From Pseudolabrys sp. (lineage in GTDB: Bacteria > Pseudomonadota > Alphaproteobacteria > Rhizobiales > Xanthobacteraceae), in contig JALHRB010000012.1 in NCBI GenBank assembly GCA_022841665.1, forward strand, positions 1 through 64,000: 64,000 bases of DNA. Reading direction: 5' to 3'. Under the pieces are notes generated by a model. The model did no database searches and had not been told where the DNA came from. It saw nothing but the letters and a program-made list of their open reading frames with translations. The position numbers and the translations under genes were made by a program. Positions within the stretch are counted from its first letter, which is position 1. Each line of letters opens with the position of its first letter. Positions 20,366 through 35,209 of this stretch are shown here, piece after piece.

Positions 20366-20463
20366 GTCATCCCGGCCGAGCGAAGCGAGAGCCGGGATCC
20401 AGTACTCCGTGCCCTCTCGATAGACTGCGGCGTACTGGGTCCCCGCTTTCGCGGGGACGACGA
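20366..20463. repeat. Dispersed palindromic repeat, family A copy 3 (inverted)
   Basis: Reads GTCATCCCGGCC...GGATCCAGTACT on the left and CGTACTGGGTCCCCGC...GGGGACGAC on the right, the reverse complement of the layout at 19679-19783. It separates the convergent macro-domain and lactonase-like genes. Confidence 0.8.
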
Positions 20464-21261
20464 CTAGATTTTCGGCTCCACATCCAGCCGCACGACCCAG
20501 TTCTCCAGGCCCGCCTTCGCGGCCGGATAAAGCGAGGTCACCAGCGGATCGTGGCCGGGCACCATGTGGTGGCGCGACGACGACAGCTTGAGCAGCTTCT
20601 TGTAGCCCTCCAGCGTGTCGCCGACGCTGTAGGTGATCGGGAACACGCGGCCCTCGTCGATATGCGAGTAGAGGTGGCAGCAGTCGGAGGCGACCACGAC
20701 ATAGCCGCGCTTGGTCTTCACGCGCACGCATTGCAGGCCCTTCGAATGGCCGCCGATCTTGTGCACGGTGATGCCGGGCGCGAGCTCTTCGTCGCCGTCG
20801 TGGAACTCGACGCGGTCGGCGAAGACCTTGCTCACCATCGCGTGCACGTCGCTCTCCGAGAACGGAATGCGCAGCATCTTGTGGCACATGCAGCGGCCGG
20901 TAGCGTAGGCCATCTCGGTGTCCTGGATGTGATAGCGCGCATTGGGAAACAGGTCGTAATTGCCGGCGTGGTCCCAATGCATGTGCGTGGCGATGACGTG
21001 ATCGACATGATCGGGCTCGATGCCGAGCGCTTTCAGCCCCTCGCCCACCGGCTTGATGATCTTGCGGCCGCGCTCCGTGGCCGCCGCCTCGTCGAAGCCG
21101 GTGTCGCAGACGAAGGTGCCGTGCGGGCCCTTGATGACCCAGACGTAATAGGCGATCGAGGTTATCTCGTCGTGCGGGTCGCCGAAGATGTAGTTCTCGG
21201 CGCGCTTGCGCGCGTGGCTGGCGTAGCGGACGGCATAGACCTCGTGGACGTCGTCGCTCAT
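20464..21261 (-). CDS. Metallo-beta-lactamase fold hydrolase (AHL-lactonase-like)
   Basis: Protein of 265 aa with the dinuclear zinc site THMHWDHAG (His93, His95, Asp97, His98), a later His in GGHSKG, a bridging Asp in ASDCCH and His in VPGHDP. Overall resemblance is to N-acyl homoserine lactonase-type proteins (AttM/AiiB group), but many such proteins hydrolyse other lactones or thioesters. Its ATG overlaps the stop of the upstream dehydrogenase gene (ATGA), and it is last in a catabolic run, so hydrolysis of a pathway lactone or ester is as likely as quorum quenching. Confidence 0.82.
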   Translation of the reverse strand: MSDDVHEVYAVRYASHARKRAENYIFGDPHDEITSIAYYVWVIKGPHGTFVCDTGFDEAAATERGRKIIKPVGEGLKALGIEPDHVDHVIATHMHWDHAGNYDLFPNARYHIQDTEMAYATGRCMCHKMLRIPFSESDVHAMVSKVFADRVEFHDGDEELAPGITVHKIGGHSKGLQCVRVKTKRGYVVVASDCCHLYSHIDEGRVFPITYSVGDTLEGYKKLLKLSSSRHHMVPGHDPLVTSLYPAAKAGLENWVVRLDVEPKI

Positions 21262-22154
21262 GGCTTTTTCTCCCGGCCGATGGTCACGCCGGCGCGGCCT
21301 TCGACCATCTTGACGATCACCGTGAAATCGCTGTCGCCGCCGAACTCCTTATTGGTCGCCTCCCATTGGTCGAGCACGGTTGCCATCACCTGGCTCGGCG
21401 AATTGAGCCCCTTGGCTTCCTCAAAGCACAGCCGCACGTCCTTGAGCATCAGGGCGGTGCCGAAGCCGTAGTTGAACGTGCGCGGCAGGATGGCCTGCGG
21501 GAATTTGCCGTCCGAGGCGGTGGTGCGGCCGGAGCCGGCATTGATCACGTCGATCATCACGGCAGGATCGAGCCCGGCTTTGACGCCCATCGCCACCGCT
21601 TCGGCGGTGGCCGCCATGGCCGTGGCCGAAAGGAAATTGTTGGCAAGCTTCATGGTCTGCGCCATGCCGGGCTTTTCGCCAATGACGAAGACCTTGCCGA
21701 ACACGGCGAGTGCGTCCTTCACCTGGTCGATCTCGGCGCGCGGGCCGGAGACCATGACGGCGAGCGTGCCTTTGGTGGCGCCGCCGACGCCGCCCGAAAC
21801 CGGGCTGTCAATCTGCACGATGTTCTTCTTGGCGAGCGTGGCGGCGATGTCGGCGGCCACGCGCGAGCCGGTGGTCGAAAGATCGATGAAGCGCTTGATA
21901 CGCTTGCCGTGGATGACGCCGCCCTCGCCGGTCGCCACTTTGCGGGAGATCTCGACCGAGGGCAGGCTCGCCATCACGGTCTCGACCCGGTCGGCGACGT
22001 CTTGCGGCGAGGAGGCGAGCTGAGCTCCAAGCGCAACGAGCGGCGCGACTGCATCGTTGCGGGTGTCATAGACGACCAGCTTGTGCCCGGCCTCGATCAG
22101 CCGGCGCGCCATCGGCTGCCCCATATTGCCCAAACCGATAAAGCCGATGTCCAT
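21258..22154 (-). CDS. NAD(P)-dependent 3-hydroxyacid dehydrogenase (HIBADH family)
   Basis: Protein of 298 aa in the 3-hydroxyisobutyrate dehydrogenase / tartronate semialdehyde reductase family. N-terminal Rossmann motif IGFIGLGNMGQPMARRL; substrate loop DSPVSGGVGGA; catalytic Lys in KLANNFLSA; cofactor-side motif near the C-terminus. It oxidises a short 3-hydroxyacid or reduces its semialdehyde. The frame stays open far upstream, but the start MDIGFIG is fixed by the fold. It overlaps the downstream lactonase-like gene by 4 bases and follows the CoA-transferase gene after 83 bp. Confidence 0.88.
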   Translation of the reverse strand: MDIGFIGLGNMGQPMARRLIEAGHKLVVYDTRNDAVAPLVALGAQLASSPQDVADRVETVMASLPSVEISRKVATGEGGVIHGKRIKRFIDLSTTGSRVAADIAATLAKKNIVQIDSPVSGGVGGATKGTLAVMVSGPRAEIDQVKDALAVFGKVFVIGEKPGMAQTMKLANNFLSATAMAATAEAVAMGVKAGLDPAVMIDVINAGSGRTTASDGKFPQAILPRTFNYGFGTALMLKDVRLCFEEAKGLNSPSQVMATVLDQWEATNKEFGGDSDFTVIVKMVEGRAGVTIGREKKP

Positions 22155-22237: not shown

Positions 22238-23362
22238 CTAGCGGGTCGAAAATTCCTTGCGCACCTTGTCGCTGTGCTCGCCGAGCGCGGGGATCGGCCC
22301 GTAGGCGCGCTCCTGCCCGGCGCGGATCGGCGCCGGCGCCGGCATCGATACCGGACCGGTGGGCGCGCCCACCGTGATGCGGCGCAGGTGCGGATGCTTC
22401 GACAGCAGCTCCCAGTCGTTGACGCGGGCAAAGCCGATCTCGGCGCGGTCGAGCAGCGCCATCAGTGGCGCGACGTCGGTCCGCGCGAACACCGCGCCGA
22501 CAATGGCGTCGGTGTCGTGCCTGTTGGCCACGCGCTTTGGATTGGTGGCGAAGCGCGCATCGGCGGCAAGCGACGCATCGCCCAGCACTTTCTCGGCCAG
22601 CACGCGCCATTCGCGGTCGTTCTGGATGGCGATCAGGATGTCGGCGTCGTCGCGCGTCTTGAACACGCCGTAGGGCGCGATGGCCGCATGCGCGAGCCCG
22701 ATGCGCTTGAACGGCGTGCCGCCCTCGCCGTGCAAGAGCGGCACCGTCATCCATTCCGCCATGGCGTCGAACATGGAGACGGAAATCTCGGCGCCCTCGC
22801 CGCTGCGGCCGCGCGCGATCAGCGCTTCGAGAATGGCCTCGTAGGCGTTCACGCCGGCGGCGATGTCCACGATGGAGACGCCGACGCGCGCCGGCCCGTC
22901 CGGACCGCCGGTGACGGAGGCGACGCCCGACTCCGCCTGGATCAGCAGGTCGTAGGCCTTGCGCTGCGCATAAGGCCCGCTCTCGCCGTAGCCGGAAATC
23001 GAGCAGCAGATCAGGCGCGGATAGTCCTTGCGCAGCCGCGCCATGGCGAAGCCGAGCTTGGCGAGCGCGCCGGGCTTCAGGTTCTGCACGAACACGTCGG
23101 CCTTGGCGAGCATGGCTTCGAGCAGCGCCTTGTCCTCGGCCTTGCCGAGGTCGAGCACCACCGACTCCTTGCCGCGGTTGAGCCAGACAAAATTGGCGCT
23201 CTCGCCGTGCACGACATGATCGTATTGGCGGGCGAAGTCGCCTTCCGGGCGCTCGACCTTGATGACGCGCGCGCCGGCATCCGCCAGCCGGCAGGTGCAC
23301 TGCGGCGCCGCGACCGCCTGCTCAATGGAAACGACGAGGAGGCCTGAGAGGGGGAGGGTCAT
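22238..23362 (-). CDS. CaiB/BaiF-family CoA-transferase
   Basis: Class III CoA-transferase of 374 aa. It moves CoA between carboxylic acids through an aspartyl-CoA intermediate; the catalytic Asp is Asp138 in KAYDLLIQAESG. Other features: an early GARVIKVERPEGDFAR, NLKPGALAKLG, and SISGYGESGPY, all family hallmarks. The substrate is unknown. Position between an acyl-CoA dehydrogenase and a 3-hydroxyacid dehydrogenase suggests activation of an organic acid before oxidation. Confidence 0.88.
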   Translation of the reverse strand: MTLPLSGLLVVSIEQAVAAPQCTCRLADAGARVIKVERPEGDFARQYDHVVHGESANFVWLNRGKESVVLDLGKAEDKALLEAMLAKADVFVQNLKPGALAKLGFAMARLRKDYPRLICCSISGYGESGPYAQRKAYDLLIQAESGVASVTGGPDGPARVGVSIVDIAAGVNAYEAILEALIARGRSGEGAEISVSMFDAMAEWMTVPLLHGEGGTPFKRIGLAHAAIAPYGVFKTRDDADILIAIQNDREWRVLAEKVLGDASLAADARFATNPKRVANRHDTDAIVGAVFARTDVAPLMALLDRAEIGFARVNDWELLSKHPHLRRITVGAPTGPVSMPAPAPIRAGQERAYGPIPALGEHSDKVRKEFSTR

Positions 23363-23515: not shown

Positions 23516-24685
23516 TCAATACGACCGCGGCAACCCGAGCACGTGCTCGGCGAGATAAGACAGGATCATGTTGGTCGAGATCGGCGCCACCTGGTAGAGC
23601 CGCGCCTCGCGGAACTTGCGCTCGACGTCGTACTCCTCGGCGAAGCCGAAGCCGCCATGCGTCTGCACGCACATGTCGGCGGCCGCCCAGGAAGCGTCGC
23701 CGGCCAGGAGCTTGGCCATGTTGGCCTCGGCGCCGATGTCGCCGCCGGCCTCGTACTTGCGCGCGGCTTCGCGCACCATCAATTCGGCGGCGCGCATCTG
23801 CGCGTAGCAGCGCGCGATCGGGAACTGCACGCCCTGGTTCTGGCCGATCGGCCGGCCGAACAACTCGCGCTCCTTGGCGTAGCGCGTCGCCTTGTCGATG
23901 AACCACTTGGCGTCACCGATGCACTCGGCCGCGATCAGGATGCGTTCGGCATTCATGCCGGAGAGGATGTAGCGGAAGCCCTTGCCTTCCTCGCCGATCA
24001 GATTCTCCGCCGGCACGCGCAGGTCGTCGAAAAAGATTTGCGTGGTGGCGTGATTCATCATGGTGCGGATCGGCGTGATGGTCATGCTGGTGCCCTGCGC
24101 CAGCCGCATGTCCACCAGGAAAACCGAGAGGCCGTCGGTGCGCTTTTGCGCCTGCTCGCGCGGCGTGGTGCGCGCGAGCAGAAGCATCAGGTCGGAATGC
24201 TCCGCGCGCGAGGTCCAGATCTTCTGGCCGTTGATGACGTAATGGTCGCCCTCGCGCCGCGCGACGGTGCGCAAGGCGAGGGTGTCGGTGCCCGAGGTCG
24301 GCTCGGTGACGCCGAAAGCCTGCAACCGCAATTCGCCGGACGCGATCTTCGGCAGGTAGCGCTGCTTCTGCGCGTCGCTGCCGTGGCGCAGGATCGTGCC
24401 CATGATGTACATCTGCGCATGGCAGGCCGCGCCATTGCCGCCGGAGGCGTGCACTTCTTCCAGGATCGCCGCCGCCGCGCTGATCGTCAGCCCGCTGCCG
24501 CCGAACTCCTCGGGGATGAGCGCGGCGAGATAGCCGGCCTCGGTCAGCGCCGCGACGAAGGCGGTCGGATAGGCGCGCTCGCGGTCGAGGGAACGCCAAT
24601 AATCGCCCGGGAATTTGGCGCAAAGCGCGCGCACGCCGTCGCGGATGTCGGCAAACGGATCGGGCTCGGCGTGGCCTTTGGTCAT
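23516..24685 (-). CDS. Acyl-CoA dehydrogenase family protein
   Basis: FAD enzyme of 389 aa with the usual layout: helical N-domain (LIPEEFGGSGLTISAAAAIL), beta middle domain (AFGVTEPTSGTD, ITPIRTMM) and helical C-domain (THGGFGFAEEYDVER). Oxidises an acyl-CoA at the alpha-beta bond. At the position where MCAD-type enzymes carry the catalytic Glu (YEGTSQ) this protein reads YQVAPISTNM, so the base may be elsewhere, as in isovaleryl-CoA-type enzymes, or the chemistry may differ. It sits in the minus-strand catabolic run next to a CoA-transferase. Confidence 0.88.
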   Translation of the reverse strand: MTKGHAEPDPFADIRDGVRALCAKFPGDYWRSLDRERAYPTAFVAALTEAGYLAALIPEEFGGSGLTISAAAAILEEVHASGGNGAACHAQMYIMGTILRHGSDAQKQRYLPKIASGELRLQAFGVTEPTSGTDTLALRTVARREGDHYVINGQKIWTSRAEHSDLMLLLARTTPREQAQKRTDGLSVFLVDMRLAQGTSMTITPIRTMMNHATTQIFFDDLRVPAENLIGEEGKGFRYILSGMNAERILIAAECIGDAKWFIDKATRYAKERELFGRPIGQNQGVQFPIARCYAQMRAAELMVREAARKYEAGGDIGAEANMAKLLAGDASWAAADMCVQTHGGFGFAEEYDVERKFREARLYQVAPISTNMILSYLAEHVLGLPRSY

Positions 24686-24719: not shown

Positions 24720-25823
24720 CTAGCCCCACACTTCCTGCGCCAGATCCACGATCATGCGCAGCTTCGCCCATTGCTCCTCCTCGGCCAGCGTGTTGCCTTC
24801 CTCGGTGGAGGCGAAGCCGCATTGCGGCGACAGGCAAAGCTGGTCGAGGGCCACGAATTTTGCGGCCTCCTCGATGCGGCGCTTGAGCTCGTCCTTGGAT
24901 TCGAGGCGGCCGGTCTTCGAGGTGACGAGGCCGAGCACGGCGGTGCGGTCCTTCGGCAGCATGCGCAGCGGCTCGAAGCCGCCGGCGCGGTCGGAATCGT
25001 ACTCCATGAAGAAGCCGTGCACCTTGATCTTGTCGAACAGGATCTCCTGCACCTTCTCGTAGCCGCCGGCGCCCATGTAAGTGGACTTATAGTTGCCGCG
25101 GCACATGTGCATGGTGACGGTCATGTCCGGCGGGATGTCCGACATCGCCGTGTTGATGAGGTCGCCGTAAAGCGCGCCGAGTTGCTCGGGATCGTCGCCG
25201 CGGTCGCGCATCTTCTGCCGGTAGCCGTCGTCGCACAGCATGGCGATGAAGACTTCGTCGAGCTGGAGATAGCGGCAGCCGGCGTCGGCGAAGGCGCGCA
25301 CCGCTTTTTTGTAGGCCTGGCCGAGATCCTCGAACATCGGCTCGAGCGCCGGATAGACCGCGCGGTCGATCGGCGGCAGCGCCGGCCGGCCGTACAGCGC
25401 CGACGGCGACGGGATCGTGATCTTGGGCGTGCGCTTGGTGCGCGCGGCGACAAACTTGAAATGCTCGATCATCGGATGCGCAGAAAAGCCGATCTTGCCG
25501 GTTACCTTGACGCCCTCGTTGCGCGTGGTGACGGCGGCAAAGGCGACGCCGGTGTCCATCACGTGCTTCTCGATGCCGTCGAGGCCCCAGAGGAAGTCGA
25601 GATGCCACCAGGAGCGGCGGAATTCGCCGTCGGTGATCGATTGCAGGCCGACATCTTCTTGCTGCCTGATGACGCGCTCGATCTCGCGGTCCTCGACCGC
25701 TTTCAGCGCCGCGGCGTCGATCCCGCCTTTGGCGAATTGCGCGCGCGCCTCTTTCAGCGCGGCCGGGCGCAACAGGCTGCCGACATGGTCGGCGCGGAAC
25801 GGCGGTTTTGTGCGTTTCGTCAT
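24720..25823 (-). CDS. MetE-like zinc methyltransferase, paralogue 1
   Basis: Protein of 367 aa equivalent to the C-terminal catalytic barrel of cobalamin-independent methionine synthase, without the N-terminal folate-binding half. Predicted zinc ligands: His239 and Cys241 (MHMCRGN), Glu274 (FFMEYDSDRAGGFEPL) and Cys335 (LSPQCGFAS). Such stand-alone proteins include folate-independent methionine synthases and epoxyalkane:CoM transferase, all activating a thiol on zinc. The start MTKRTKPPFR is shared with two neighbours; the upstream codons are translation of a repeat. It is separated from the other two paralogues by an ABC receptor gene. Confidence 0.88.
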   Translation of the reverse strand: MTKRTKPPFRADHVGSLLRPAALKEARAQFAKGGIDAAALKAVEDREIERVIRQQEDVGLQSITDGEFRRSWWHLDFLWGLDGIEKHVMDTGVAFAAVTTRNEGVKVTGKIGFSAHPMIEHFKFVAARTKRTPKITIPSPSALYGRPALPPIDRAVYPALEPMFEDLGQAYKKAVRAFADAGCRYLQLDEVFIAMLCDDGYRQKMRDRGDDPEQLGALYGDLINTAMSDIPPDMTVTMHMCRGNYKSTYMGAGGYEKVQEILFDKIKVHGFFMEYDSDRAGGFEPLRMLPKDRTAVLGLVTSKTGRLESKDELKRRIEEAAKFVALDQLCLSPQCGFASTEEGNTLAEEEQWAKLRMIVDLAQEVWG

Positions 25824-25840
25824 GTTACTCACCCTGCAGA

Positions 25841-25946
25841 TTGTCATGGCCGGGCTTGTCCCGGCCATCCCGCTTAGGTGAACACATCCTCTCCTAAGCG
25901 AGATCACCGGGACACGGCGCTGACGCGCCGGCCCGGTGATGACAAG
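25841..25946. repeat. Dispersed palindromic repeat, family D
   Basis: Three nested or adjacent hairpins: GGCCGGGCTTGTCCCGGCC, CGCTTAGG...CCTAAGCG, and ATCACCGGG...GCCCGGTGAT. It fills the gap between the ABC receptor gene and MetE-like paralogue 1. Its minus-strand translation gives MAGTSPAMT, a peptide often mis-annotated as an N-terminus. Confidence 0.75.
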
Positions 25947-25967
25947 GTTGCAAATAGGCGCCGCGCC

Positions 25968-27242
25968 TTACTTCGCGAGCGCCTTTTCGTAGGGGTAGAT
26001 CACGTCGCCGCTCTTGTACTGCGGCGGATAGATGATCGGCAGCGTGTCGAGCTTGCGGAACTCCTCGATGCTGTTGCCTTTGACGTTCTGGAACTGCGCC
26101 GCCATCACCCGTTCAGTCGCCCATTCGCCGTTCGGCCCAAACTTGACCTTGCCGACCGTGGTGTCGAACGTCGTTTTGCGGAGGTAGTCGGCGAGCTTGG
26201 CGTCGTCGAGGCTCTTGGTGGCGTTGACGGCGTCGCCCAGCACCTGGAGATAGGCATAGGCCCAGACCGGCATGTAGTAGCCGAGCGGATCGACGCCCTC
26301 GGCGGCCGCGCGGGCCTGGTACTTTTTCAGCAGGTCCATCGAGCCCGGAAACTCCATGGTCTTGTGCGGCAGCCACGTCTCGAAATTGACGAGGCCGTTA
26401 AGCAGCGGTCCGAGCTGGGTCTTGAACACGGTCGCCTGCAGGCCGACCATCGCGCCGCCCCACATCTTCGGCTTGAAGCCGACTTCGTTCATCGCCTTGA
26501 CCATGCCGACGGAGTCGAGCGGATAGGAGCAGACCACCAGCAGGTCCGGATTGGTCGCCTGGATCGCACGCACGATCGGCGCGAAGTCGGTCGTCGCCGG
26601 CGGATAGCGCCGCTCGTAGACGATCTTGAAGCCCGCCGCCTTGGCGTTCTCCGCCGCGCCCTCGCAGGCGTTGCGGCCGAACTCCGCGTCGGCCATCGCG
26701 ATCGCAATGGTCTGCGGCTTCGGGTTCTGCGCTTCGGCCACCTTGAAGAAGCCGCGGGTGAAGGCCGGCTTCGGCGTCGGCCCGTTCGGGATCATCGAGA
26801 AGTAGCGGTCGTATTTGAATTCGTCGTTGATGCCGGTGCCGAACAGGCTGATGAACACCTTCTTCTTCTGAATCGCGATCGGCATCGCCGGGGCGATCTG
26901 GCCCGAGGCGTAGCCGCTGACGATCAGGTCCACCTTGTCGACGTCGAGCAGCTTGGTATAGATGCCCGGCACCGTTGAGGGATTGCTCTGGTCGTCGAAG
27001 TAGACGAGCTTCACCGGCCGGCCCATCAGGCCGCCCTTGGCATTGGTATCCTCTTCCCAAATCTTCATCGCCAGCAGGGAGCTTTTGCCGTTGGCGGCAA
27101 GTGGCCCGGTGAGCGACATGCCGAAGCCGATCTTGATCGGCTCCTTGGCCGGGGCCTGCGCTTGCGCCGGCGCGATGGCGAACAGCAGTGCGCCTGCGGC
27201 GGCCGAACAGGCCAGCTTGATCCAGTTTGATTTTGTAGTCAT
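25968..27242 (-). CDS. ABC transporter substrate-binding protein, branched-chain amino acid type
   Basis: Periplasmic receptor of 424 aa. A signal peptide (about residues 1-28: KLACSAAAGALLFAIAPAQAQA) is followed by a Leu/Ile/Val-binding-like domain (PIKIGFGMSLTGPLAANGK, DDQSNPSTVPGIYTKLLD). The start after GGGGGAGG is clear. The ligand may be an amide, aromatic or other organic acid; this family is very broad. No permease or ATPase genes lie beside it, so it must use a transporter encoded elsewhere. It is embedded between MetE-like paralogues, hinting that its ligand is their substrate. Confidence 0.88.
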   Translation of the reverse strand: MTTKSNWIKLACSAAAGALLFAIAPAQAQAPAKEPIKIGFGMSLTGPLAANGKSSLLAMKIWEEDTNAKGGLMGRPVKLVYFDDQSNPSTVPGIYTKLLDVDKVDLIVSGYASGQIAPAMPIAIQKKKVFISLFGTGINDEFKYDRYFSMIPNGPTPKPAFTRGFFKVAEAQNPKPQTIAIAMADAEFGRNACEGAAENAKAAGFKIVYERRYPPATTDFAPIVRAIQATNPDLLVVCSYPLDSVGMVKAMNEVGFKPKMWGGAMVGLQATVFKTQLGPLLNGLVNFETWLPHKTMEFPGSMDLLKKYQARAAAEGVDPLGYYMPVWAYAYLQVLGDAVNATKSLDDAKLADYLRKTTFDTTVGKVKFGPNGEWATERVMAAQFQNVKGNSIEEFRKLDTLPIIYPPQYKSGDVIYPYEKALAK

Positions 27243-27341
27243 TTCCTCCCCCTTCGGGTTTTGGACGCGGGGCGAAAACCCGCGCCATGGTGACGGCATG
27301 CTATTGGTCTTGAGGGCCGGCGCAAATGCAAAAACGTCGCG

Positions 27342-28445
27342 TCAGCCCCACACTTCCCGCGAGAGTTCGACGATCATGGAAAGCTTTGCCCACTGCTCTT
27401 CTTCCGCGAGCACGTTGCCCTCCTCGGTCGAGGCGAAGCCGCATTGCGGCGAAAGACAGAGCTGCTCGAGCGCGACGTATTTCGACGCCTCGTCGATGCG
27501 CCGCCTGATCTCGTTCTTGGGTTCCAGCCGCCCACTCTTGGAGGTGACGAGGCCGAGCACGAGCTGCTTGCTGCCCTTCGGGAAATAGCGCAACGGCTCG
27601 AAGCCGCCGGCGCGGTCGCTATCGTATTCGAGGAAATAGCCGTCGAGATTGGTGTGGCCGAGCAGGTGTTCGGCGACGAACTCGTAGCCGCCCTGCGCAA
27701 TCCAGGTGGAGCGGAAATTGCCGCGGCAGGAGTGCATGGTGATCGCCATGTCCGCGGGCTTGCCTTCGAGCGCCGCATTGGTCACGCGCGCATAGATCGC
27801 CGGCAGCTTGTTCGGGTCGTCGCCGCGCTTCTGCGATTCCTCGCGCTCGTGCGGATCGCACATCATCGCCCAGGCGGTATCGTCGAGCTGCAGATAACGG
27901 CAGCCGGCGTCGTAGAAGGCGCGAATCGCCTTGCGCCAGGCCGCCGAGACGTCGGCGAAGAACGCATCCATGTCGGGATAGACGTCCTTGCTGACCTTGG
28001 CGCGGCCTTGCCGGAAATGGAATGTCGACGGCGCCGGGATCGTCATCTTCGGCGTGACGTTGCAATGCGCCTTCAGGAACTTGAAATGCTCGATCATCGC
28101 ATGGCCGTCGAAATCGACCTTGCCGTCGATCAGGATGCCTTCGCTCTTGGTTTCGACGCCGTGAAACTTGATCGCCGGCATCTGCACCATCGAGACGCCC
28201 TTCAAGCCGCGGAAGAAATCGAAATGCCACCAGGAGCGGCGGAATTCGCCATCGGTGGCGAGCTGGAGGCCTATCTCCTCCTGCTTCCTGACGACCTTCT
28301 CGATCTCGCGGTCTTCCACCGCCTTCAACGCGGCCGCGTCGATCTCGCCCTTGGCGCGCCTGGCGCGCGCGTCCTTCAACGCGGCGGGACGCAACAGGCT
28401 GCCGACATGGTCGGCGCGGAACGGCGGCTTGGTGCGTTGAGACAT
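27342..28445 (-). CDS. MetE-like zinc methyltransferase, paralogue 2
   Basis: Protein of 367 aa, colinear with paralogues 1 and 3. Predicted zinc ligands His238, Cys240 (MHSCRGN), Glu273 (FLEYDSDRAGGFEPL) and Cys335 (LSPQCGFAS). The N-terminus MSQRTKPPFRADHVGSLLRP and the C-terminus EEEQWAKLSMIVELSREVWG are nearly the same in all three. The middle (residues about 84-160) differs most, which is where substrate specificity would be expected. The upstream repeat (family A copy 4) makes longer open frames spurious. Confidence 0.88.
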   Translation of the reverse strand: MSQRTKPPFRADHVGSLLRPAALKDARARRAKGEIDAAALKAVEDREIEKVVRKQEEIGLQLATDGEFRRSWWHFDFFRGLKGVSMVQMPAIKFHGVETKSEGILIDGKVDFDGHAMIEHFKFLKAHCNVTPKMTIPAPSTFHFRQGRAKVSKDVYPDMDAFFADVSAAWRKAIRAFYDAGCRYLQLDDTAWAMMCDPHEREESQKRGDDPNKLPAIYARVTNAALEGKPADMAITMHSCRGNFRSTWIAQGGYEFVAEHLLGHTNLDGYFLEYDSDRAGGFEPLRYFPKGSKQLVLGLVTSKSGRLEPKNEIRRRIDEASKYVALEQLCLSPQCGFASTEEGNVLAEEEQWAKLSMIVELSREVWG

Positions 28446-28469
28446 TGACGCGTCGCTCCCTACTCGGCC

Positions 28470-28562
28470 GTCATGCCCGCGAAAGCGGGCATCCAGTAAA
28501 CACCGTCTTGGCGATTGAGCCGCGACACAGAGAGTACTGGGTCCCCGCTTTCGCGGGGTCGA
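28470..28562. repeat. Dispersed palindromic repeat, family A copy 4
   Basis: Left hairpin GTCATGCCCGCGAAAGCGGG with CATCCAGTA; right TACTGGGTCCCCGC with GGGGTCGAC. Lies between MetE-like paralogues 2 and 3. Confidence 0.8.
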
Positions 28563-28577
28563 CAGCTTCATATGCTG

Positions 28578-29690
28578 CTATTTCCCCCAAACCTCCTGGG
28601 ACAGATCGACGATCATCTTCAGCTTGGCCCACTGCTCTTCTTCCGCGAGCACGTTGCCTTCCTCGGTCGAGGCAAAGCCGCATTGCGGCGACAGGCAAAG
28701 CTGGTCGAGCGCGACGAACTTGGTCGCCTCGTCGATGCGCTTCTTCACGTCGGCTTTTTTCTCGAGCGTGCCGCTCTTGGAGGTGACCAGGCCGAGCACC
28801 ACGATCTTGTTGCCCTTGGGCAGGAAGCGCAGCGGCTCGAAGCCGCCGGCGCGGTCGGTGTCGTACTCCAGGAAGTAGCCGTCGTAGTTGCACTTGGAAA
28901 GCAGGCTTTCGGCGACCGGCTCATAGCCGCCGGACGAAATGAACGTCGAGCGGAAGTTGCCGCGGCAGACATGCGTGGTGATCGTCATGTCGGCGGGCTT
29001 GGCTTCCAATGCCTTGTTGATGCACTTGGTGTAGGTGTCCTGCAGGTGATCGACGTCGAGGCCGCGTTCGCGCGCCTTCTTCAGCTCCTCCTGCGAGCAG
29101 AGATAGGCCCAGGCGGTGTCGTCGAACTGGAGATAGCGGCAGCCGGCGGCATAAAACGCCTTCACAGCGTTCTGATAGGCGATTGCGAGATCGTCGAAGA
29201 TAGCGTCGCGGTCGGCGTAAGCATCCTTGCTCACCGAGCCCGGCTCCAGACGGAAGTGCATGACCGTCGGCGAGGGGATCGTCATCTTCGGCGTGCGGGT
29301 CGTATGCTGCTTCAGAAACTTGAAATGCTCGAGCATCGGATGGTTGGCGGAAAAGCCGATCTTGCTGCCGACCCGCAGCACCTTCATCTTGGTCTGCATG
29401 CCCTGGAACTGGATGCCGTGGTCCGAGTCCACCACCGAGACGCCGTCGAGCATGCCGAAAAAGTCGAAATGCCACCAAGCGCGGCGGAATTCTCCATCGG
29501 TGATCGATTGCAGGCCGATCTCTTCCTGCTTCTTGATGATCTTGATGATCTCGCGATCCTCGACTTCTTTCAGTTGAGCCGCGGTGATCTCTCCCTTCTC
29601 ACGCTTGGCGCGCGCTTCCTTGACCGGCGCGGTGCGCAGGATGCTGCCGACCTGATCGGCGCGAAAAGGCGGTTTGGTTCTTTGGGTCAT
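28578..29690 (-). CDS. MetE-like zinc methyltransferase, paralogue 3
   Basis: Protein of 370 aa with the same fold and ligands as its neighbours: His240, Cys242 (THVCRGN), Glu275 (FLEYDTDRAGGFEPL) and Cys337 (LSPQCGFAS). The start MTQRTKPPFR has GGAGGA upstream. It follows the MTHFR-like gene by 37 bp, which is the strongest link in the cluster to one-carbon chemistry. Like the others it lacks the N-terminal MetE half, so it is not an ordinary methyl-THF-dependent methionine synthase. Confidence 0.88.
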   Translation of the reverse strand: MTQRTKPPFRADQVGSILRTAPVKEARAKREKGEITAAQLKEVEDREIIKIIKKQEEIGLQSITDGEFRRAWWHFDFFGMLDGVSVVDSDHGIQFQGMQTKMKVLRVGSKIGFSANHPMLEHFKFLKQHTTRTPKMTIPSPTVMHFRLEPGSVSKDAYADRDAIFDDLAIAYQNAVKAFYAAGCRYLQFDDTAWAYLCSQEELKKARERGLDVDHLQDTYTKCINKALEAKPADMTITTHVCRGNFRSTFISSGGYEPVAESLLSKCNYDGYFLEYDTDRAGGFEPLRFLPKGNKIVVLGLVTSKSGTLEKKADVKKRIDEATKFVALDQLCLSPQCGFASTEEGNVLAEEEQWAKLKMIVDLSQEVWGK

Positions 29691-29727
29691 CGATTCCTCC
29701 GCAGGGTACAGCCGCCTTGGGCGGGTC

Positions 29728-30579
29728 TTAGTTGTGGTGAGCCATAGCACGGCCGGCGCCGAGCGTTCCACGCGCGACTTCGCATGCGTAACGTGCGGTT
29801 TCAACGGTGCCGCCGAATGAAAAATAATGGGGCGCGGCATCGCCCAAGCCGTCGGCGGCCGCAAGTGCTTCGAGGATGCGGTCGGGGCCGACATGCCCGA
29901 TCAGGGAGGCGGCCGCCCCCGACATCAGCCCGCGCATGGAGGCCGAGACGCCGCAACGTTTTGCATACCGGAATAGGGCCGGCATGCTGGTCGGCCCCGC
30001 CATGCCGACTTTGACCGGGCAGTTGATGCCGGACACCCGCAATTGCTTGAGCCAAGCCAGGATGCGTTCAGGGGAAAACGAGAATTGGCTGACGATATGA
30101 ACCTTGAGCCCCTGCGCCCGGGCGGCAGCGATCTTCTCGTCGAGCGCCGCTTCCAGCCGGCCGGGCGGGATGCGCGGATGACCTTCGGGATAGGCGCCGA
30201 TGCCGATCTCGGCGATGCCGGCCTCGCGCAGGCGGCCCTTCTGGATCACCGCCAGCGCGTCGTGAAATGGGCCCGCCGCCTCGACATCGCCGCCGATCAC
30301 CAGCAGGCGGCGCACGTCGGCCTCGTTGCGCAGGCCGGACAGCAATGCACGCAGGTCCTCGGCGGACGCGATGCGCCGCGCGGCGACATGGACCACCGGC
30401 TCCAGTCCCGCCTTGCGCAGCGACCCGGCCGCGGCCACCAGCTCGTGCGGCGCGACCGTCGGCACCGCCGAGAAATAGACCGGCGTGCCGGCCGGCAGCA
30501 GGTCGGCAAGCGCGCCGATCTCGGCCGCGTTCGGCCGCGTGGCTTCGATGGAGAATTGCCGAGAAAGTCCGGCGTGCAT
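29728..30579 (-). CDS. Methylenetetrahydrofolate reductase family protein
   Basis: Protein of 283 aa, a divergent MetF-like flavin barrel. Seen: FSIEATRP near the N-terminus (position of the catalytic Glu of MetF), PVVHVAARR, and LLVIGGDVEAAGPFHDAL (equivalent to the LRGD Asp that contacts flavin), then GIGAYPEGHPRIP and the C-terminal GINCPVKVGMAGP. Expected chemistry is interconversion of 5-methyl- and 5,10-methylene-THF. Placed directly upstream of MetE-like paralogue 3, it may recycle methyl-THF formed by methyl-group removal from a substrate, rather than serving methionine synthesis. Confidence 0.82.
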   Translation of the reverse strand: MHAGLSRQFSIEATRPNAAEIGALADLLPAGTPVYFSAVPTVAPHELVAAAGSLRKAGLEPVVHVAARRIASAEDLRALLSGLRNEADVRRLLVIGGDVEAAGPFHDALAVIQKGRLREAGIAEIGIGAYPEGHPRIPPGRLEAALDEKIAAARAQGLKVHIVSQFSFSPERILAWLKQLRVSGINCPVKVGMAGPTSMPALFRYAKRCGVSASMRGLMSGAAASLIGHVGPDRILEALAAADGLGDAAPHYFSFGGTVETARYACEVARGTLGAGRAMAHHN

Positions 30580-30590
30580 CTCTCACCCGT

Positions 30591-30676
30591 TCGTCCCCGC
30601 GCAAGCGGGGACCCAGCAATGCAAACCGTGAAATTCGTAACGACAGAACTGGATTCCCGCTTGCGCGGGAATGAAC
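30591..30676. repeat. Dispersed palindromic repeat, family A copy 5
   Basis: Left GTCCCCGCGCAAGCGGGGAC with CCAGCA, right ACTGGATTCCCGCTTGCGCG with GGAATGA. It lies between the MTHFR-like gene and the upstream methyltransferase gene on the same strand. Confidence 0.75.
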
Positions 30677-30702
30677 GGAGTGTGTTGCCGGCGCACCATT
30701 GA

Positions 30703-32109
30703 TTATTCGCGCCGGTGCGAGATGACGAAGGACTCGTCGTAGAACCACAGGCCGCCGTGCTGTTGCAGCACGTCGCGCGTGGCCTCGACGAAGCGCCGGT
30801 CGCTGTTGACGTCGGAGAGCCGGTCGTCCTCGACCTGCGCCACATAGATCGCCGCGTTCCAGGCCGCCAGCAGCGTGGAGGTGCCGATCGACGAGGAGAT
30901 TTCCGACGGCAGCGTGTGCATTTCATAGCGGAACAGCGAGCGCTGGTCGGAATAGGCGTTGAAGTTGAGGTCGCGGCCGGCCGCGCCCAGTTCCTGCTTC
31001 ACCGCCTTGAGCAGATCGTGGCGGCTGTGCATGAACGGGTTGTCGTTCGGCCAGACCTTGTGGATGATCTCCATGCCGGGATCGTTGCCGTAGGAGTGGA
31101 TCGCGATCATGCGCCCGCCGGGACCGAGTGCGCGGGCAAGCGGGGCCAGCACGCGCTTGGCCTTGAACTCGAGCGAGGCGCGCGCGCGATAGGGCTGCGA
31201 GGCGATGACCAGATCGTAATCGGCGACGGTGCCGCCGGGCTTGGGCACGATCTGGTCGAGCAGGAATTTGTGGTCGTTGCGGTAGAGCACCAGGATGACC
31301 GGCCGCTCGTAGACCGGGTTGCCGCTCTTGGCCGACACGCGCGCCTTCCAGTTCTCGGCGAGGAATGGCTCAAGCGCCGTGATCTGCTGCTCGAAGCTGT
31401 GCGCGGTGTTGCCGTCCATCGCCACTTCCTTCCAGACCAGGCTGGTGGCGGCGCTCAGCGATTTCGCCGCGAGCCATGGCGCATCCGCATAAGCAAGATT
31501 GGTCAGCACGACGACGCTGGAGGGATGCTCGACGAAACGGTCGGGCAGCTTCTGCAAGGTCAGCCGGATGTCCTCGAGGCTGATCTCCTTGCCGACGATG
31601 TAAAACGGCATGGTCGGGAAGCGGTCGTGCATCGAACGCATCACGCGCGCGAGCACGGTGCCGTCGCCGACGCCGGCGTCGAACAGGCGCACCGCCGGCG
31701 GGCGCGGATGGATGTTGGCGAGCTCGAGGCTGACGCGATTGGCGACTTCCCACTTCTCGCTGCAGGTATTCACGAACAGCAGATATTTCTGCCGGTTGTC
31801 GAAGAAGCGGAAATTGCGCTGCGGATCGTCATTGGCCTGGCCGGAGGCGACCGGCGGCGCCGGCGGCTTCACCACCGGCAGCGCCGACGGCGGCGCATCG
31901 AACAGCACGCGGCGGCGACCGGGCGCTTCGTCGGCGCTCTGCGACATGAAGGCGCGAATGCGTTCCAGCGTGTCGGTGGTGATGCGGCCGCCGTTGCGCA
32001 GCCGGCTGGCGAGCTTGCCGTCGTTGACGGCGCGGCGGCCGAAGGTGGATTCGGCCAGGCCGCGCTGGCGGCAGAATTCGCTGATCTCCTGGAGAATCTG
32101 TTCGTTCAT
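30703..32109 (-). CDS. SAM-dependent methyltransferase-like protein, unknown substrate
   Basis: Protein of 468 aa. The first ~60 residues look like a helix-turn-helix-like segment (EISEFCRQRGLAESTFGRRA, VNDGKLASRLRNGGRITTDT). After a Pro/Ala linker comes a class I methyltransferase core with motif I VRLFDAGVGDGTVLARVM (about residue 147) and later LARALGPGGRMIAIHS. The substrate is unknown. The start has AAGGAAG upstream. It is a single gene, transcribed toward the MTHFR-like gene but separated from it by a repeat. Alternative: a regulator that has lost DNA binding. Fold confidence is good, function open. Confidence 0.7.
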   Translation of the reverse strand: MNEQILQEISEFCRQRGLAESTFGRRAVNDGKLASRLRNGGRITTDTLERIRAFMSQSADEAPGRRRVLFDAPPSALPVVKPPAPPVASGQANDDPQRNFRFFDNRQKYLLFVNTCSEKWEVANRVSLELANIHPRPPAVRLFDAGVGDGTVLARVMRSMHDRFPTMPFYIVGKEISLEDIRLTLQKLPDRFVEHPSSVVVLTNLAYADAPWLAAKSLSAATSLVWKEVAMDGNTAHSFEQQITALEPFLAENWKARVSAKSGNPVYERPVILVLYRNDHKFLLDQIVPKPGGTVADYDLVIASQPYRARASLEFKAKRVLAPLARALGPGGRMIAIHSYGNDPGMEIIHKVWPNDNPFMHSRHDLLKAVKQELGAAGRDLNFNAYSDQRSLFRYEMHTLPSEISSSIGTSTLLAAWNAAIYVAQVEDDRLSDVNSDRRFVEATRDVLQQHGGLWFYDESFVISHRRE

Positions 32110-32429: not shown

Positions 32430-33044
32430 TCAGACCTGGAAGAAAACCGTCTCGTTCTCGCCCTGCACGCGGATGTCGAAACGATAGACCGGCAGGTCGC
32501 CCTTCATCGTCTTGTGGGCAACGAGGGTCCCGCGCCGGTCCTCCGGCACCAGCGCCAGGATGGGATCGGCGGCGTTGGCGCCTTCGTCCGAGAAGTACAT
32601 GCGGGTGTAGATCTGCCGCAGCATGCCGCGCGAGAAGATGCAGAACACGATGTGCGGCGCCTGGGTCTTGCCGTTCGGTCCCGGCACCGCGCCCGGCTTG
32701 ATGGTGTCGAAGCCGAAGACGCCGTCCTTGTCGGTGGCCGAGCGGCCGAAGCCCTTGAACTGGGTGTTCGGGCGGGCGCGGTTGTCGGCCGGGCTGGCGT
32801 AGCGGCCCTGCGCGTCCGCCTGCCAGATCTCCAGCATGGCGTCGTTGATCGGCATGCCGTCGCCGTCGGTGATGCGCCCCTCGATGTGGATCTTCTGGCC
32901 GGTGGCGTCCGGCGTGACCAGATTGTCGCCGACGGTTTCCTTCCAGCTATAGCTGCCGTTCGGATCCCAGTGGCAGCGCCCTTTGGGCGCGAGGCCGTAA
33001 GCGAAGAACGGGCCGACGGTCTGCGATGGCGTGATGTCCGACAT
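32430..33044 (-). CDS. pcaG: Protocatechuate 3,4-dioxygenase, alpha subunit
   Basis: Protein of 204 aa beginning ITPSQTVGPFFAYGL, the family signature. It contains EIWQADAQGRYASP and the C-terminal LVAHKTMKGDLPVYRFDIRVQGENETVFF. The alpha subunit pairs with PcaH; it carries a degenerate site without the iron ligands. The complex opens protocatechuate between C3 and C4 (intradiol) to beta-carboxymuconate in the beta-ketoadipate pathway. It follows pcaH after 62 bp that contain a palindromic repeat and ends at a strong terminator. Confidence 0.95.
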   Translation of the reverse strand: MSDITPSQTVGPFFAYGLAPKGRCHWDPNGSYSWKETVGDNLVTPDATGQKIHIEGRITDGDGMPINDAMLEIWQADAQGRYASPADNRARPNTQFKGFGRSATDKDGVFGFDTIKPGAVPGPNGKTQAPHIVFCIFSRGMLRQIYTRMYFSDEGANAADPILALVPEDRRGTLVAHKTMKGDLPVYRFDIRVQGENETVFFQV

Positions 33045-33058: not shown

Positions 33059-33107
33059 GCGCATGATCTTGTCCGAAAACCGGTGTCCACTTTTCGGGAT
33101 CATGCGC
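33059..33107. repeat. Hyphomicrobiales-type palindromic element between pcaH and pcaG
   Basis: A 49-bp palindrome: GCGCATGATC...GATCATGCGC at the ends and CCGAAAACCGG...CCACTTTTCGG inside. Elements of this sequence are widespread in rhizobial genomes. The last base overlaps the pcaH stop codon, so it lies in the transcribed gap between two subunit genes. Confidence 0.85.
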
Positions 33108-33814
33108 TAGTGCTTGTCCGTGTCGAGGGGAGTGGCCTCACGTCCGCGCAGCACGATGTCGAAGCGGAAGCAGAGCGCCCAATCGGGAATGGTGTTTTCG
33201 AGGTCGAAGGTCGAGACCATGCGGTTGCGGGCCTTCTCGTCCGTGACCGAATTGAAGATCGGGTCGAACGGGAAAAGGTAGTCGCCCGGGAAGTACATCT
33301 GGGTGACCAGCCGCGACAGGAACGAGTGGCCGAACACCGAGAAGTGAATGTGGTTCGGCCGCCAGGCGTTGTGGTGGTTGCCCCAGGGGTAGGCGCCCGG
33401 CTTCACGGTGATGAACTTGTAGTAGCCGTGCTTGTCGGTGACCGCGCGGCCGGCGCCGGTGAAGTTCGGATCGAGCGGCGCCGGGTGCTGGTCGACGTTG
33501 TGCACGTAGCGGCCGCAGGCATTGGCCTGCCAGATCTCCACCAGCGTATCCGGCACCGGGCGCTTGTCCTCGTCCAGCACGTGGCCGTGCACGATGATGC
33601 GCTCGCCCAGCGGCTCGCCCTTGTGCTGCTTGGTGAGGTCGTTGTCGCCTTCCTGTACCGCGTCGTGGCCATAGACCGGCCCGCTCAGCTCAGACAGCGT
33701 GTGCGGCATGATGATCAGCGGCTTAGACGGCGACCGCTTCACCGTGCTGCGGTACTCCGGCGACAGATGCTTGGGATAGGCGTCCAAGCTCTTGACTGGG
33801 TAGATGAGCGACAT
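33107..33814 (-). CDS. pcaH: Protocatechuate 3,4-dioxygenase, beta subunit
   Basis: Protein of 235 aa carrying the catalytic Fe(III). The expected ligands are a Tyr in CGRYVHNVD, a Tyr in GAYPWGNHHN and two His in WRPNHIHFSVFG. The PcaH-specific N-terminus (YPKHLSPEYRSTVKRSPSKP) marks it as beta rather than a catechol dioxygenase. It forms (alpha-beta)n with PcaG. It starts 22 bp after the pcaF stop, so the order pcaF-pcaH-pcaG is an operon. Confidence 0.95.
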   Translation of the reverse strand: MSLIYPVKSLDAYPKHLSPEYRSTVKRSPSKPLIIMPHTLSELSGPVYGHDAVQEGDNDLTKQHKGEPLGERIIVHGHVLDEDKRPVPDTLVEIWQANACGRYVHNVDQHPAPLDPNFTGAGRAVTDKHGYYKFITVKPGAYPWGNHHNAWRPNHIHFSVFGHSFLSRLVTQMYFPGDYLFPFDPIFNSVTDEKARNRMVSTFDLENTIPDWALCFRFDIVLRGREATPLDTDKH

Positions 33815-33836
33815 TGTTGTTCCTTCTCGGCTCCGT

Positions 33837-35045
33837 TCAGGAAACGCGTTCGAGCGCCAGCGAAACACCCTGGCCTACGCCGACGCACATGGTGGCAAGC
33901 GCCAGCCTGCCGCCCCTCTCCTCCAGGCCATGCGTGGCTGTCAGCGCCAAGCGCGCGCCCGACATCCCGAGCGGATGCCCGAGCGCGATCGCCCCGCCAT
34001 GCGGGTTGACGTGCTCGGCATCGTCGGCAAGCCCGAGCTGTCGCAGGCAGGCTAGCGACTGCGAGGCGAAGGCTTCGTTGATCTCGATCAAATCGTAGTC
34101 GGCGATCTTATGCTGGAGGCGCGCCATCAGCTTCTGCGTCGCTGGCACCGGGCCGATGCCCATGATGCGCGGCGGTACCGCCGCCGAGGCCATGCCGAGA
34201 ATACGGGCGCGGGGAGTGAGGCCGTGCGCCTTCACCGCCGCTTCCGAGGCGACGATGAGCGCGGCCGCGCCATCGTTGACGCCGGAGGCGTTGCCGGCGG
34301 TGACCGTGCCGGGATTGCGAAACGGTGTCTTCAGCTTGGCCAGCTGCTCGAGCGTGGTGTCAGGACGCGGATGCTCGTCGGTGTCGATCTTGACGCTCTC
34401 GCCCTTGCGGCCGGCGATTTCGACCGGGACGATCTCCTTGGCGAAGTAGCCGGCGGCAATGGCCTTGCCGGCGCGCTGCTGCGAGCGCACCGCAAAGGCG
34501 TCCTGGTCGGCGCGCGTCACCTGGAATTCCTCGGCCACGTTCTCGCCGGTCTCCGGCATCGAATCGACGCCATATTGCGCCTTCATCAGCGGGTTGACGA
34601 AGCGCCAGCCAATGGTGGTGTCGTAGATTTCCACCGAACGCGAGAAGGCTTCCTGCGCCTTGCCCTGCACGAAGGGCGCGCGCGTCATGGATTCGACGCC
34701 GCCGGCGATGGCGAAATCCATCTCGCCGGCGCGGATGGCGCGCGCCGCGGTGCCGACCGCCTCCAGCCCGGAGGCGCATAGCCGGTTGAGCGTGACGCCC
34801 GGCACATGGCCCGGCAGCCCGGCCAGCAGCAGCGCCATGCGGGCGACGTTGCGATTGTCCTCGCCGGCCTGGTTGGCGCAGCCGTAGAACACCTCGTCGA
34901 GCTTCTCCCAATTGGCCTTCGGGTTGCGCGCCACCAGCGCCTTGATCGGCACCGCGGCGAGATCGTCGGCGCGCACCTTAGCGAGCGCGCCGGCATAGCG
35001 GCCGATCGGCGTGCGCACCCCGTCGCAGATGAAAACGTCACGCAT
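33837..35045 (-). CDS. pcaF: 3-oxoadipyl-CoA thiolase
   Basis: Thiolase of 402 aa for the last step of the beta-ketoadipate pathway (beta-ketoadipyl-CoA to succinyl-CoA and acetyl-CoA). Seen: MRDVFICDGVRTPIGRYAGA, nucleophile in NRLCASGLEAV, the GHPLGMSGAR histidine and CVGVGQG near the end. The insert EIYDTTIGWRFVNPLM is typical of PcaF. It is directly preceded by a stump of a CoA-transferase gene and followed by pcaH. The start MRDVF has AGGATG upstream. Confidence 0.93.
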   Translation of the reverse strand: MRDVFICDGVRTPIGRYAGALAKVRADDLAAVPIKALVARNPKANWEKLDEVFYGCANQAGEDNRNVARMALLLAGLPGHVPGVTLNRLCASGLEAVGTAARAIRAGEMDFAIAGGVESMTRAPFVQGKAQEAFSRSVEIYDTTIGWRFVNPLMKAQYGVDSMPETGENVAEEFQVTRADQDAFAVRSQQRAGKAIAAGYFAKEIVPVEIAGRKGESVKIDTDEHPRPDTTLEQLAKLKTPFRNPGTVTAGNASGVNDGAAALIVASEAAVKAHGLTPRARILGMASAAVPPRIMGIGPVPATQKLMARLQHKIADYDLIEINEAFASQSLACLRQLGLADDAEHVNPHGGAIALGHPLGMSGARLALTATHGLEERGGRLALATMCVGVGQGVSLALERVS

Positions 35046-35110
35046 GGTCACATCCTGTTCCCGGCCTTTGGCATAGACAGACTTCATACAATATAGGCAC
35101 GCGAACTTGC

Positions 35111-35209
35111 CTACGCCGCCATAAGGTGCGTGAACCCTTCCAGGGCCACCTTATCGCCGTCGTGGACGGCGGCTTTGATGGCCTCGGCAAGCGACGTAAA
35201 CTGCGCCAT
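35111..35209 (-). pseudogene. Truncated 3-oxoacid CoA-transferase alpha-subunit gene (32 codons left)
   Basis: A 32-codon frame MAQFTSLAEAIKAAVHDGD... continuing VALEGFTHLMAA matches only the N-terminus of CoA-transferase alpha subunits (PcaI/CatI-like, normally about 230-290 aa). After FTHL the homology stops and a TAG follows; 65 bp later pcaF begins. The rest of the alpha gene and the beta gene are missing, as in a deletion. The stump keeps its own ATG and a strong promoter, and may act as a leader peptide. The succinyl-CoA:3-oxoadipate transferase step must be encoded elsewhere. Confidence 0.75.

Follow-up and report, generated by a model that had tools for sequence, protein, structure and literature searches.

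Three neighbouring genes of Pseudolabrys sp., here called M1, M2 and M3, appear to be old members of one MetE-barrel family that, here and in related bacteria, takes part in breaking down methoxylated aromatics from lignin, and we tentatively regard their products as homocysteine-dependent O-demethylases. Gene order suggests the link to aromatic compounds, and the reaction is one that we infer. In several lineages M genes stand beside known demethylases, and lignin fragments may thus lose their methyl groups by a route not recognised so far.

A MetE-barrel array next to protocatechuate cleavage genes

In the window, by which we mean the whole stretch of 64,000 nucleotides that was analysed, the locus runs on directly from pcaF-pcaH-pcaG (protocatechuate cleavage), and an ACAD-CoAT-HIBDH-MBL run lies downstream (Table 1).

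Table 1. Genes of the M1–M3 locus and its flanks, by position in the window.
Gene	Product and remarks	Position	Strand
MBL	Metallo-beta-lactamase-fold lactonase-like protein	20464-21261	-
HIBDH	3-Hydroxyisobutyrate-dehydrogenase-like protein	21258-22154	-
CoAT	CoA-transferase family III	22238-23362	-
ACAD	Acyl-CoA dehydrogenase; 34 bp past M1, after M arrays in relatives too	23516-24685	-
M1	MetE-barrel paralogue no. 3, 367 aa	24720-25823	-
SBP	Branched-chain-type ABC solute receptor, variable member	25968-27242	-
M2	MetE-barrel paralogue no. 2, 367 aa	27342-28445	-
M3	MetE-barrel (PRK06520-type) methyltransferase, 370 aa; heads array	28578-29690	-
MTHFR	MTHFR homologue; nearest solved structure 7XG9 (2e-53)	29728-30579	-
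HTH-MT	HTH + class I methyltransferase-fold protein, between pcaG and MTHFR	30703-32109	-
pcaG	Protocatechuate 3,4-dioxygenase alpha	32430-33044	-
pcaH	Protocatechuate 3,4-dioxygenase beta	33107-33868	-
pcaF	3-Oxoadipyl-CoA thiolase	33837-35087	-

Open reading frames, Pfam and the alignment bear out what the preliminary description had reported, namely three colinear MetE-like genes with zinc ligands and without the folate half, and an MTHFR homologue 37 bp upstream of M3. All three proteins belong to the NCBIfam subfamily NF005085 (PRK06520; 520, 574 and 591 bits, cut-off 313), for which we take YxjG to be another name. Their sole Pfam match is PF01717, the MetE catalytic half; PF08267, the N-terminal folate-binding half of MetE, is absent from them (its top match in the genome reaches 22 bits, below the cut-off of 27), and they do not match PF01571 (GCV_T), the mark of LigM/DesA membership. 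M3 matched the solved structure 1YPX at 3e-132, so the match is not due to chance. M1–M3 are thus of the same family as the PRK06520/YxjG-type core-MetE proteins (NF005085, 1YPX), from which, taken generally, they differ in their link to aromatic catabolism and in the presence of several old paralogues. The literature searched yielded neither a proven reaction for this family nor a description linking it to methoxy-aromatics.

The active site retains zinc and homocysteine residues

M1–M3 share with MetE the zinc His-x-Cys, Glu and Cys and the homocysteine Ser, Glu and Asp, residues chosen after a published account (PMC7857596). The zinc ligands, in M3 numbering H240, C242, E275 and C337, occur in M1, M2 and M3 alike and in every one of the 109 aligned family members, as do the homocysteine contacts S16 and D190; E67 is found in 108 of the 109. 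When M1–M3 were aligned with one MetE sequence, LQWSF of MetE corresponded to HFR or YGR, which replaces the Trp that we take to be the pterin-stacking residue of the MetE catalytic half. Since the homocysteine site is retained and this Trp is lost, transfer to THF by the M proteins is not indicated. R147 and R243 have no counterpart in the MesD and MetE sequences compared, and R280 also occurs in MesD.

M1–M3 do not fall within a family of proven methionine synthases, a placement that by the preliminary description would have spoken against its view. They scored below every listed NCBIfam methionine-synthase equivalog cut-off (PRK06233, 370–409 vs. 576 bits; PRK04326, 76–84 vs. 406; PRK09121, 33–48 vs. 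392; PRK00957, 28–35 vs. 258), and in our tree they lie in one clade to which neither the MetE nor the MesD rows included there belong. The core methionine synthases MesA–MesD are likewise stand-alone MetE catalytic halves that retain the zinc and homocysteine residues, but the M proteins fall far under the curated cut-offs and off the MesD row, and the genome has its own MesD-type protein (PRK09121). It also has MetH beside MetF. These genes rule out M1–M3 as the cell's sole methionine synthase and suggest that its basic supply of methionine could be made without them.

The paralogues are old

Pairwise identity is 61% between M1 and M2, 59% between M1 and M3, and 65% between M2 and M3. In the tree, the nearest partners of M3 are M genes from two other genera (99/97). 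The sister group of the M1/M1' clade consists of M genes from family f18 and one from f34 (96/93), and gallate, LigAB or van genes occur in three of the six loci read for it; the placement of M2 is weakly supported (80/92). The M3 and M1/M1' groupings rule out a recent tandem triplication, and old paralogues would fit the earlier suggestion that three differing copies act on several substrates. M genes were found in 107 of the 149 sampled genomes of the bacterial family, with up to 12 matches per genome.

Gene order links the M genes with aromatic catabolism

Of the 13 genomes in the 149-genome sample that have LigM, 11 place it no more than 1.3 kb from an M gene (six genera), and all seven M-adjacent LigM proteins that were scored pass the LigM cut-off. 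Within the genus, pca genes, HTH-MT, MTHFR and M3 stand together in 21 of 23 loci; in the other two, L074 and L070, the contig ends too early. A locus of another genus (L237) runs from pcaI-pcaF-pcaH-pcaG straight into M3-M1-M2, without MTHFR. Across the phylum, 40 sampled M loci included VanA in seven (41–83% identity; five of the seven from one family), gallate/protocatechuate-4,5 genes in three and the same Liv-type receptor in 14, and none of these occurred in 19 controls. The difference in aromatic markers is modest (Fisher 0.022), with markers chosen after the loci were seen. Some M genes in other lineages adjoin VanA-GntR-VanB, and a Pantoea plasmid carries M beside gallate genes. M-adjacent receptors matched 4EY3/4EYG/4EYK (4e-152 and 2e-219) and are closest to aromatic-acid receptors. 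This linkage supports the methyl-transfer role proposed in the preliminary description and ties it to methoxy-aromatics.

No aromatic marker was found in 31 of the 40 phylum loci. Some M loci adjoin a urea-type transporter, one of them on a Klebsiella plasmid, others lie between unrelated genes, and an Rfam search placed an S-box upstream of a Priestia copy. The unmarked loci, the transporter neighbours and the S-box point to a family wider than an aromatic role. In favour of the aromatic role, seven of 23 congeners (drafts, 80–99% complete) have M but match neither LigM nor VanA_C. M2 is absent from four of seven LigM-bearing loci and from none of the 15 LigM-free loci that are complete there (L071, which is cut off, was excluded). 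We do not rely on M2 as a functional replacement of LigM, as there are just two M2 changes on the tree and a sign test is powerless.

The MTHFR homologue belongs mainly with HTH-MT

The MTHFR homologue is nearer to 7XG9 (2e-53; 1e-7 to the next structure), which is presumably the MTHFR from SYK-6, than to canonical MetF, and its fadh2 equivalog score was 31.5 bits against a cut-off of 293.7. It adjoins the array in 22 of 23 genus loci, with LigM intervening in some. In other genera of the family it sits with HTH-MT in 34 of 36 loci and with an M gene in none of the 36; no MTHFR was found in 12 kb of the L237 pca-M array or in the 40 M stretches sampled across the phylum. This MTHFR thus belongs mainly with its HTH-MT neighbour, not with the M genes, and the earlier view of it as the partner of the M genes is weakened. 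On a Rhizobium plasmid the gene after an MTHFR of this type encodes a LigM equivalog; on a Bosea plasmid it encodes a LigM/DesA-like protein that scores below both cut-offs; and on a Sphingobium plasmid a DesA equivalog lies nearby. Six loci from two genera have the HTH-MT gene and MetK after M. One report (PMC13001107) states that a SYK-6 subfamily favours the oxidation of methyl-THF.

A possible reaction and its alternatives

We infer the methyl donor, methionine as product and a division of substrates among the paralogues as follows. Each M protein would bind homocysteine as a zinc thiolate, which would take the methyl released in a methoxy-aromatic pathway, the simplest donor being the O-methyl of a methoxybenzoate-type substrate. 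The products would be methionine and a free phenol that passes to ring cleavage, here by PcaGH, and each paralogue would handle methylated substrates of its own. MTHFR may help to remove surplus methyl-THF. Further points count against this proposal. The reaction would need homocysteine to be regenerated. VanAB, which releases formaldehyde, and LigM, which methylates THF, already demethylate where they are neighbours, so the need for M is less evident; and the Pseudolabrys sp. genome, in which a LigM search gave no match, has one VanA_C protein, away from the array.

M1–M3 might instead serve as additional methionine synthases, with methyl-THF or some other general methyl donor, whose induction alongside aromatic catabolism would let the cell get rid of surplus one-carbon units or exploit them. 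We consider this rather unlikely. It would account for the complete homocysteine and zinc sites, the NCBIfam subfamily name (5-methyltetrahydropteroyltriglutamate--homocysteine S-methyltransferase), the S-box 5' of the Priestia member and the M genes that adjoin MetK in two genera, and an M-adjacent LigM would supply methyl-THF. However, VanAB neighbours would give none, the folate domain is absent and the MetE Trp replaced, MetH beside MetF and a MesD are already in the genome, and up to 12 matches per genome with old paralogues are hard to square with one housekeeping reaction.

The direction taken in the preliminary description, in which the M proteins would be LigM-like THF-dependent O-demethylases on a MetE fold and the adjacent MTHFR would oxidise their methyl-THF, seems to us quite improbable. 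The homocysteine residues are retained and the MetE Trp is lost; MTHFR is missing from the L237 pca-M array and from 40 of 40 phylum M stretches, and its usual partner is the HTH-MT gene. In favour of this direction are the adjoining MTHFR in 22 of 23 genus loci, its nearness to the 7XG9 enzyme, the stated preference of a SYK-6 subfamily for methyl-THF oxidation (PMC13001107) and the MTHFRs of this type near LigM/DesA-type genes on Rhizobium, Bosea and Sphingobium plasmids. Also improbable is action on another methyl or alkyl compound (e.g. methyl-sulfur), with only regulation or transport in common with aromatic catabolism: 31 of 40 loci without a marker and the copies beside a urea-type transporter would agree with it, but linkage to LigM, VanAB, gallate/LigAB and pca sets recurs in several families.

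Relation to known demethylation systems

The known routes of aryl O-demethylation are Rieske or P450 oxygenases, LigM/DesA and corrinoid systems. LigM, a vanillate/3-O-methylgallate O-demethylase, with its MTHFR shares the locus in relatives, the related MTHFR type and the proposed cleavage of an aryl methyl ether with the M system, but LigM is a THF enzyme with the GcvT fold and M a zinc-thiol enzyme on the MetE fold. A coupling of catabolic demethylation to the methylation of homocysteine has precedents in Bmt of Phaeobacter, a demethylase that also makes methionine (PMC12366255), and in MtgC/MtgD of Ruegeria, in which MtgC binds cobalamin and demethylation also yields methionine (PMC12478193). 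These are other protein families with other donors (betaine, DMSP), and the available portions of both texts contain no aromatic link.

The M family, found in 107 of the 149 genomes sampled and carrying no annotation other than methionine synthase, may hide another demethylation route, and the proposal gives a testable role to MetE-like proteins for which we found no proven function. More broadly, and in our view doubtfully, MetE-fold zinc-homocysteine O-demethylases could cleave aryl methyl ethers by an additional chemistry, free of oxygen, corrinoid and folate, that turns lignin methoxyl into methionine and S-adenosylmethionine, with tandem arrays holding one paralogue per methoxylated substrate. 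The M family might also bear on the oxygen-free demethylation of vanillate-type compounds reported for Rhodopseudomonas (PMC12366328).

Other features of the window

The embedded ABC receptor of the preliminary description is present here, but it is variable across the genus (5 of 23 loci). A role of it (P0005) as an aromatic receptor is not supported, its best structure match being 4OBB/4NQR (4e-18), not the 4EY3 type. The HTH-MT protein matches no Pfam or NCBIfam family, and its AlphaFold model is middling (pLDDT 67), so that the methyltransferase-fold match is only indicative. Rfam gave no riboswitch at gathering thresholds in the window and none in six proteobacterial M loci (L173, L180, L182, L193, L201 and L208); promoter and terminator scans returned no more than shuffles. 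Two minus-strand open reading frames (36574-38565 and 38399-40450) match no family over cut-off, while plus-strand frames there match ligase, thiolase and SDR families, and we read the two as antisense frames.

Gene order in the window

The draft genome from which the window comes totals 3.85 Mb in 125 contigs and is 95% complete; the window corresponds to contig C12. Its minus-strand genes run in the order pcaF, pcaH, pcaG, HTH-MT, MTHFR, M3, M2, receptor and M1, followed by acyl-CoA dehydrogenase, family III CoA-transferase, hydroxyisobutyrate-dehydrogenase-like and lactonase-like genes. The products of pcaF, pcaH and pcaG each exceed the curated cut-off. A plus-strand group adjoining pcaF is likely a side-chain degradation set, and because these genes lie beside pcaF, the stretch has the appearance of an island of aromatic-catabolism genes. 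Palindromic repeats built around a CTGGGTCCCCGC...GCGGGGACGA core are interspersed in intergenic gaps of the cluster, including the M3-M2 and HTH-MT/MTHFR gaps. The same genome encodes a fourth M-family member (locus L015, on contig C40; 44% identity to M3), and none of the marker genes looked for nearby was found.

Positions of the features discussed, in window coordinates
Feature	Position	Strand	Content
Palindromic repeats	20433-20462		
M1	24720-25823	minus	MetE-barrel protein
Receptor	25968-27242	minus	solute-binding protein
M2	27342-28445	minus	MetE-barrel protein
Palindromic repeats	28467-28566		
M3	28578-29690	minus	MetE-barrel protein
MTHFR	29728-30579	minus	
Palindromic repeats	30587-30678		
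HTH-MT	30703-32109	minus	HTH plus class I methyltransferase fold
Group adjoining pcaF	35130-40513	plus	DUF3237, crotonase, acyl-CoA ligase, thiolase, SDR

MTHFR and HTH-MT form a separate module

The MTHFR of the window is of the 7XG9 type, and E12, D98 and Q165, matching the Glu, Asp and Gln that catalysis should require, are invariant in 19 sequences. Of 36 loci fetched from outside the genus, 34 pair this MTHFR with HTH-MT (one ORF intervenes in two), and the thresholds applied gave no M, LigM (vanillate O-demethylase), pca, van or gallate marker in any of the 36. On plasmids, MTHFR of this type is followed by a LigM equivalog in Rhizobium and by a LigM/DesA-like protein under both cut-offs in Bosea, and in Sphingobium it lies near a DesA equivalog, before purU and folD. 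The window thus unites two modules: HTH-MT/MTHFR and the pca/M-array.

HTH-MT is 62-91% identical across 34 aligned relatives and has no match in Pfam or NCBIfam; in its modelled structure it is similar to class I methyltransferases, histamine N-methyltransferase among them (E 2e-4). It reads as a putative methyltransferase or S-adenosylmethionine-sensing regulator, and may represent a new enzyme or regulator linked to S-adenosylmethionine. A paralogue lies between M and MetK in two other genera.

LigM, where present, mostly lies close to M genes in the genus and family

Close relatives of P0003, a query protein from the window, occur in 23 of the 24 genus genomes searched, our own included (E 1e-159 or better); the 24th, G015, has distant matches only. 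Across the 23 genus loci read (20 fetched, the window and two more), HTH-MT, MTHFR and M3 occur together in 22, the exception being L070, which ends inside LigM. LigM precedes M3 on the opposite strand in seven of the 23, after MTHFR in six of these, with L070 cut off; the window's receptor is present in five. LigM orthologues (at least 70%) were found in 7 of the 24 genus genomes searched and in four further genus genomes from the family search described below; G001 holds a fragment of 154 residues (56% identity), and a search of the window's own genome gave no match. Most of the relatives read (L057-L069, L073-L075, L162) have MaoC hydratase and/or SDR genes separating the M array from the acyl-CoA dehydrogenase; the window lacks them at this position. 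In-frame stop codons interrupt an MTHFR match of G180 and a LigM match of G010 (L101 and L091), and are either assembly errors or marks of decayed copies.

Of the 149 family genomes sampled, 107 contain M relatives (E <=1e-70), the highest number of matches per genome being 12, and 13 contain LigM (E <=1e-60). In 11 of these 13, spanning six genera, a LigM gene and an M gene are no more than 1.3 kb apart (G019, G056, G073, G077, G086, G095, G108, G109, G110, G149 and G180); G043 and G148, both fragmented, showed no such pair among the M places listed. All seven LigM proteins scored from M loci exceed the LigM cut-off of 580. Five such or similar arrays were read. L233 combines pcaF-pcaH-pcaG with LigM, GntR and M genes. 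L234 has an aromatic-type receptor, a Liv transporter, LigM, M genes and an intradiol dioxygenase, the last falling under the catechol dioxygenase cut-offs. L235 contains a LigB-like gene, LigM and three M genes, and L236 has five M genes, together with SDR, MaoC and acyl-CoA dehydrogenase, next to a Liv transporter and its receptor (44%). In L237, pcaI-pcaF-pcaH-pcaG leads directly into a run of three M genes and MTHFR is absent. The M family has expanded strikingly in G056 (the source of L235, the one locus read), G072 and G053, with 9 to 12 matches per genome.

Aromatic markers near M across the phylum

M was found in 49 of 398 phylum genomes; outside our own genome 50 places were listed, of which we read 40. 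A VanA-like Rieske protein (the marker used has a VanA_C match in Pfam) is encoded at seven, five of them with a VanA-GntR-VanB arrangement whose strand is opposite that of M; three places have gallate or protocatechuate-4,5 genes. Altogether nine loci carry at least one aromatic marker (VanA or ring cleavage) and 31 carry none. A receptor at least 55% identical to that of L173 is present at 14, counting L173 itself. VanA, ring-cleavage and receptor markers were found in none of 19 control stretches drawn from other parts of 19 of these genomes. Fisher comparisons gave 0.022 for aromatic markers of any kind, 0.055 for VanA by itself, 0.30 for ring cleavage by itself and 0.0017 for the receptor, values that serve as a guide only, because the markers were picked after viewing the loci and five VanA loci come from one family. 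The nearest structures to the L182 and L173 receptors are 4EY3, 4EYG and 4EYK; p-hydroxybenzoate, vanillate and protocatechuate are the ligands in these Rhodopseudomonas receptor structures. On a Pantoea piersonii plasmid, gallate genes are followed by M.

M proteins as candidate O-demethylases

M1-M3 are 59-65% identical to one another, are assigned to NCBIfam NF005085 and fall below every cut-off of the listed NCBIfam methionine-synthase equivalogs. In an alignment of 109 family members with coverage >=90%, drawn from 68 fetched loci in addition to the window, the zinc ligands do not vary, and the homocysteine contacts, taken from those that PMC7857596 describes for MetE and Mes proteins, are unvaried save for one Glu-to-Asp. 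R243, R280 and R147 adjoin these motifs. R147 is kept in 105 of the 109; at R243, both sequences compared (MesD and MetE) have Tyr, whereas at R280 MesD likewise has Arg and MetE has Asp. In a 72-row tree, whose root is unsure because the branches to MetE and MesD are very long, M3 groups with M genes from two further genera of the family (support 99/97), with M2 weakly placed beside that group (80/92). M1 and its sister M1' form one group (100/95), neighboured by M genes of family f18 and one of f34 (96/93).

This anatomy, with zinc-bound homocysteine and no folate half, would leave space for another methyl donor, and the neighbours point to a methoxylated aromatic, or some compound of that pathway, as the most likely donor. 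We found no description of the family in aromatic catabolism in the literature searched, which covers the field in part. Seven of 23 congeners (drafts, 80-99% complete) carry M genes and neither LigM nor a VanA_C match (G005, G006, G009, G017, G018, G021 and G022); there, in a search covering LigM and VanA_C, M is the sole nameable candidate O-demethylase. Where VanAB or LigM also occurs, M would serve different substrates or conditions. Our own genome encodes one VanA_C protein, on another contig. However, some M members adjoin a urea-type transporter, others are flanked by unrelated genes, and a Gram-positive member has an S-box; these look more like ordinary methionine metabolism, which counts against the aromatic reading. 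The family is probably a set of homocysteine methyltransferases with differing donors.

Net use of the methyl group would require homocysteine regeneration. Methionine from the reaction could supply MetK, as the gene order of genus g41 suggests: in g41 and g43 (six loci), receptor, Liv transporter, M, HTH-MT and MetK follow one another in that order.
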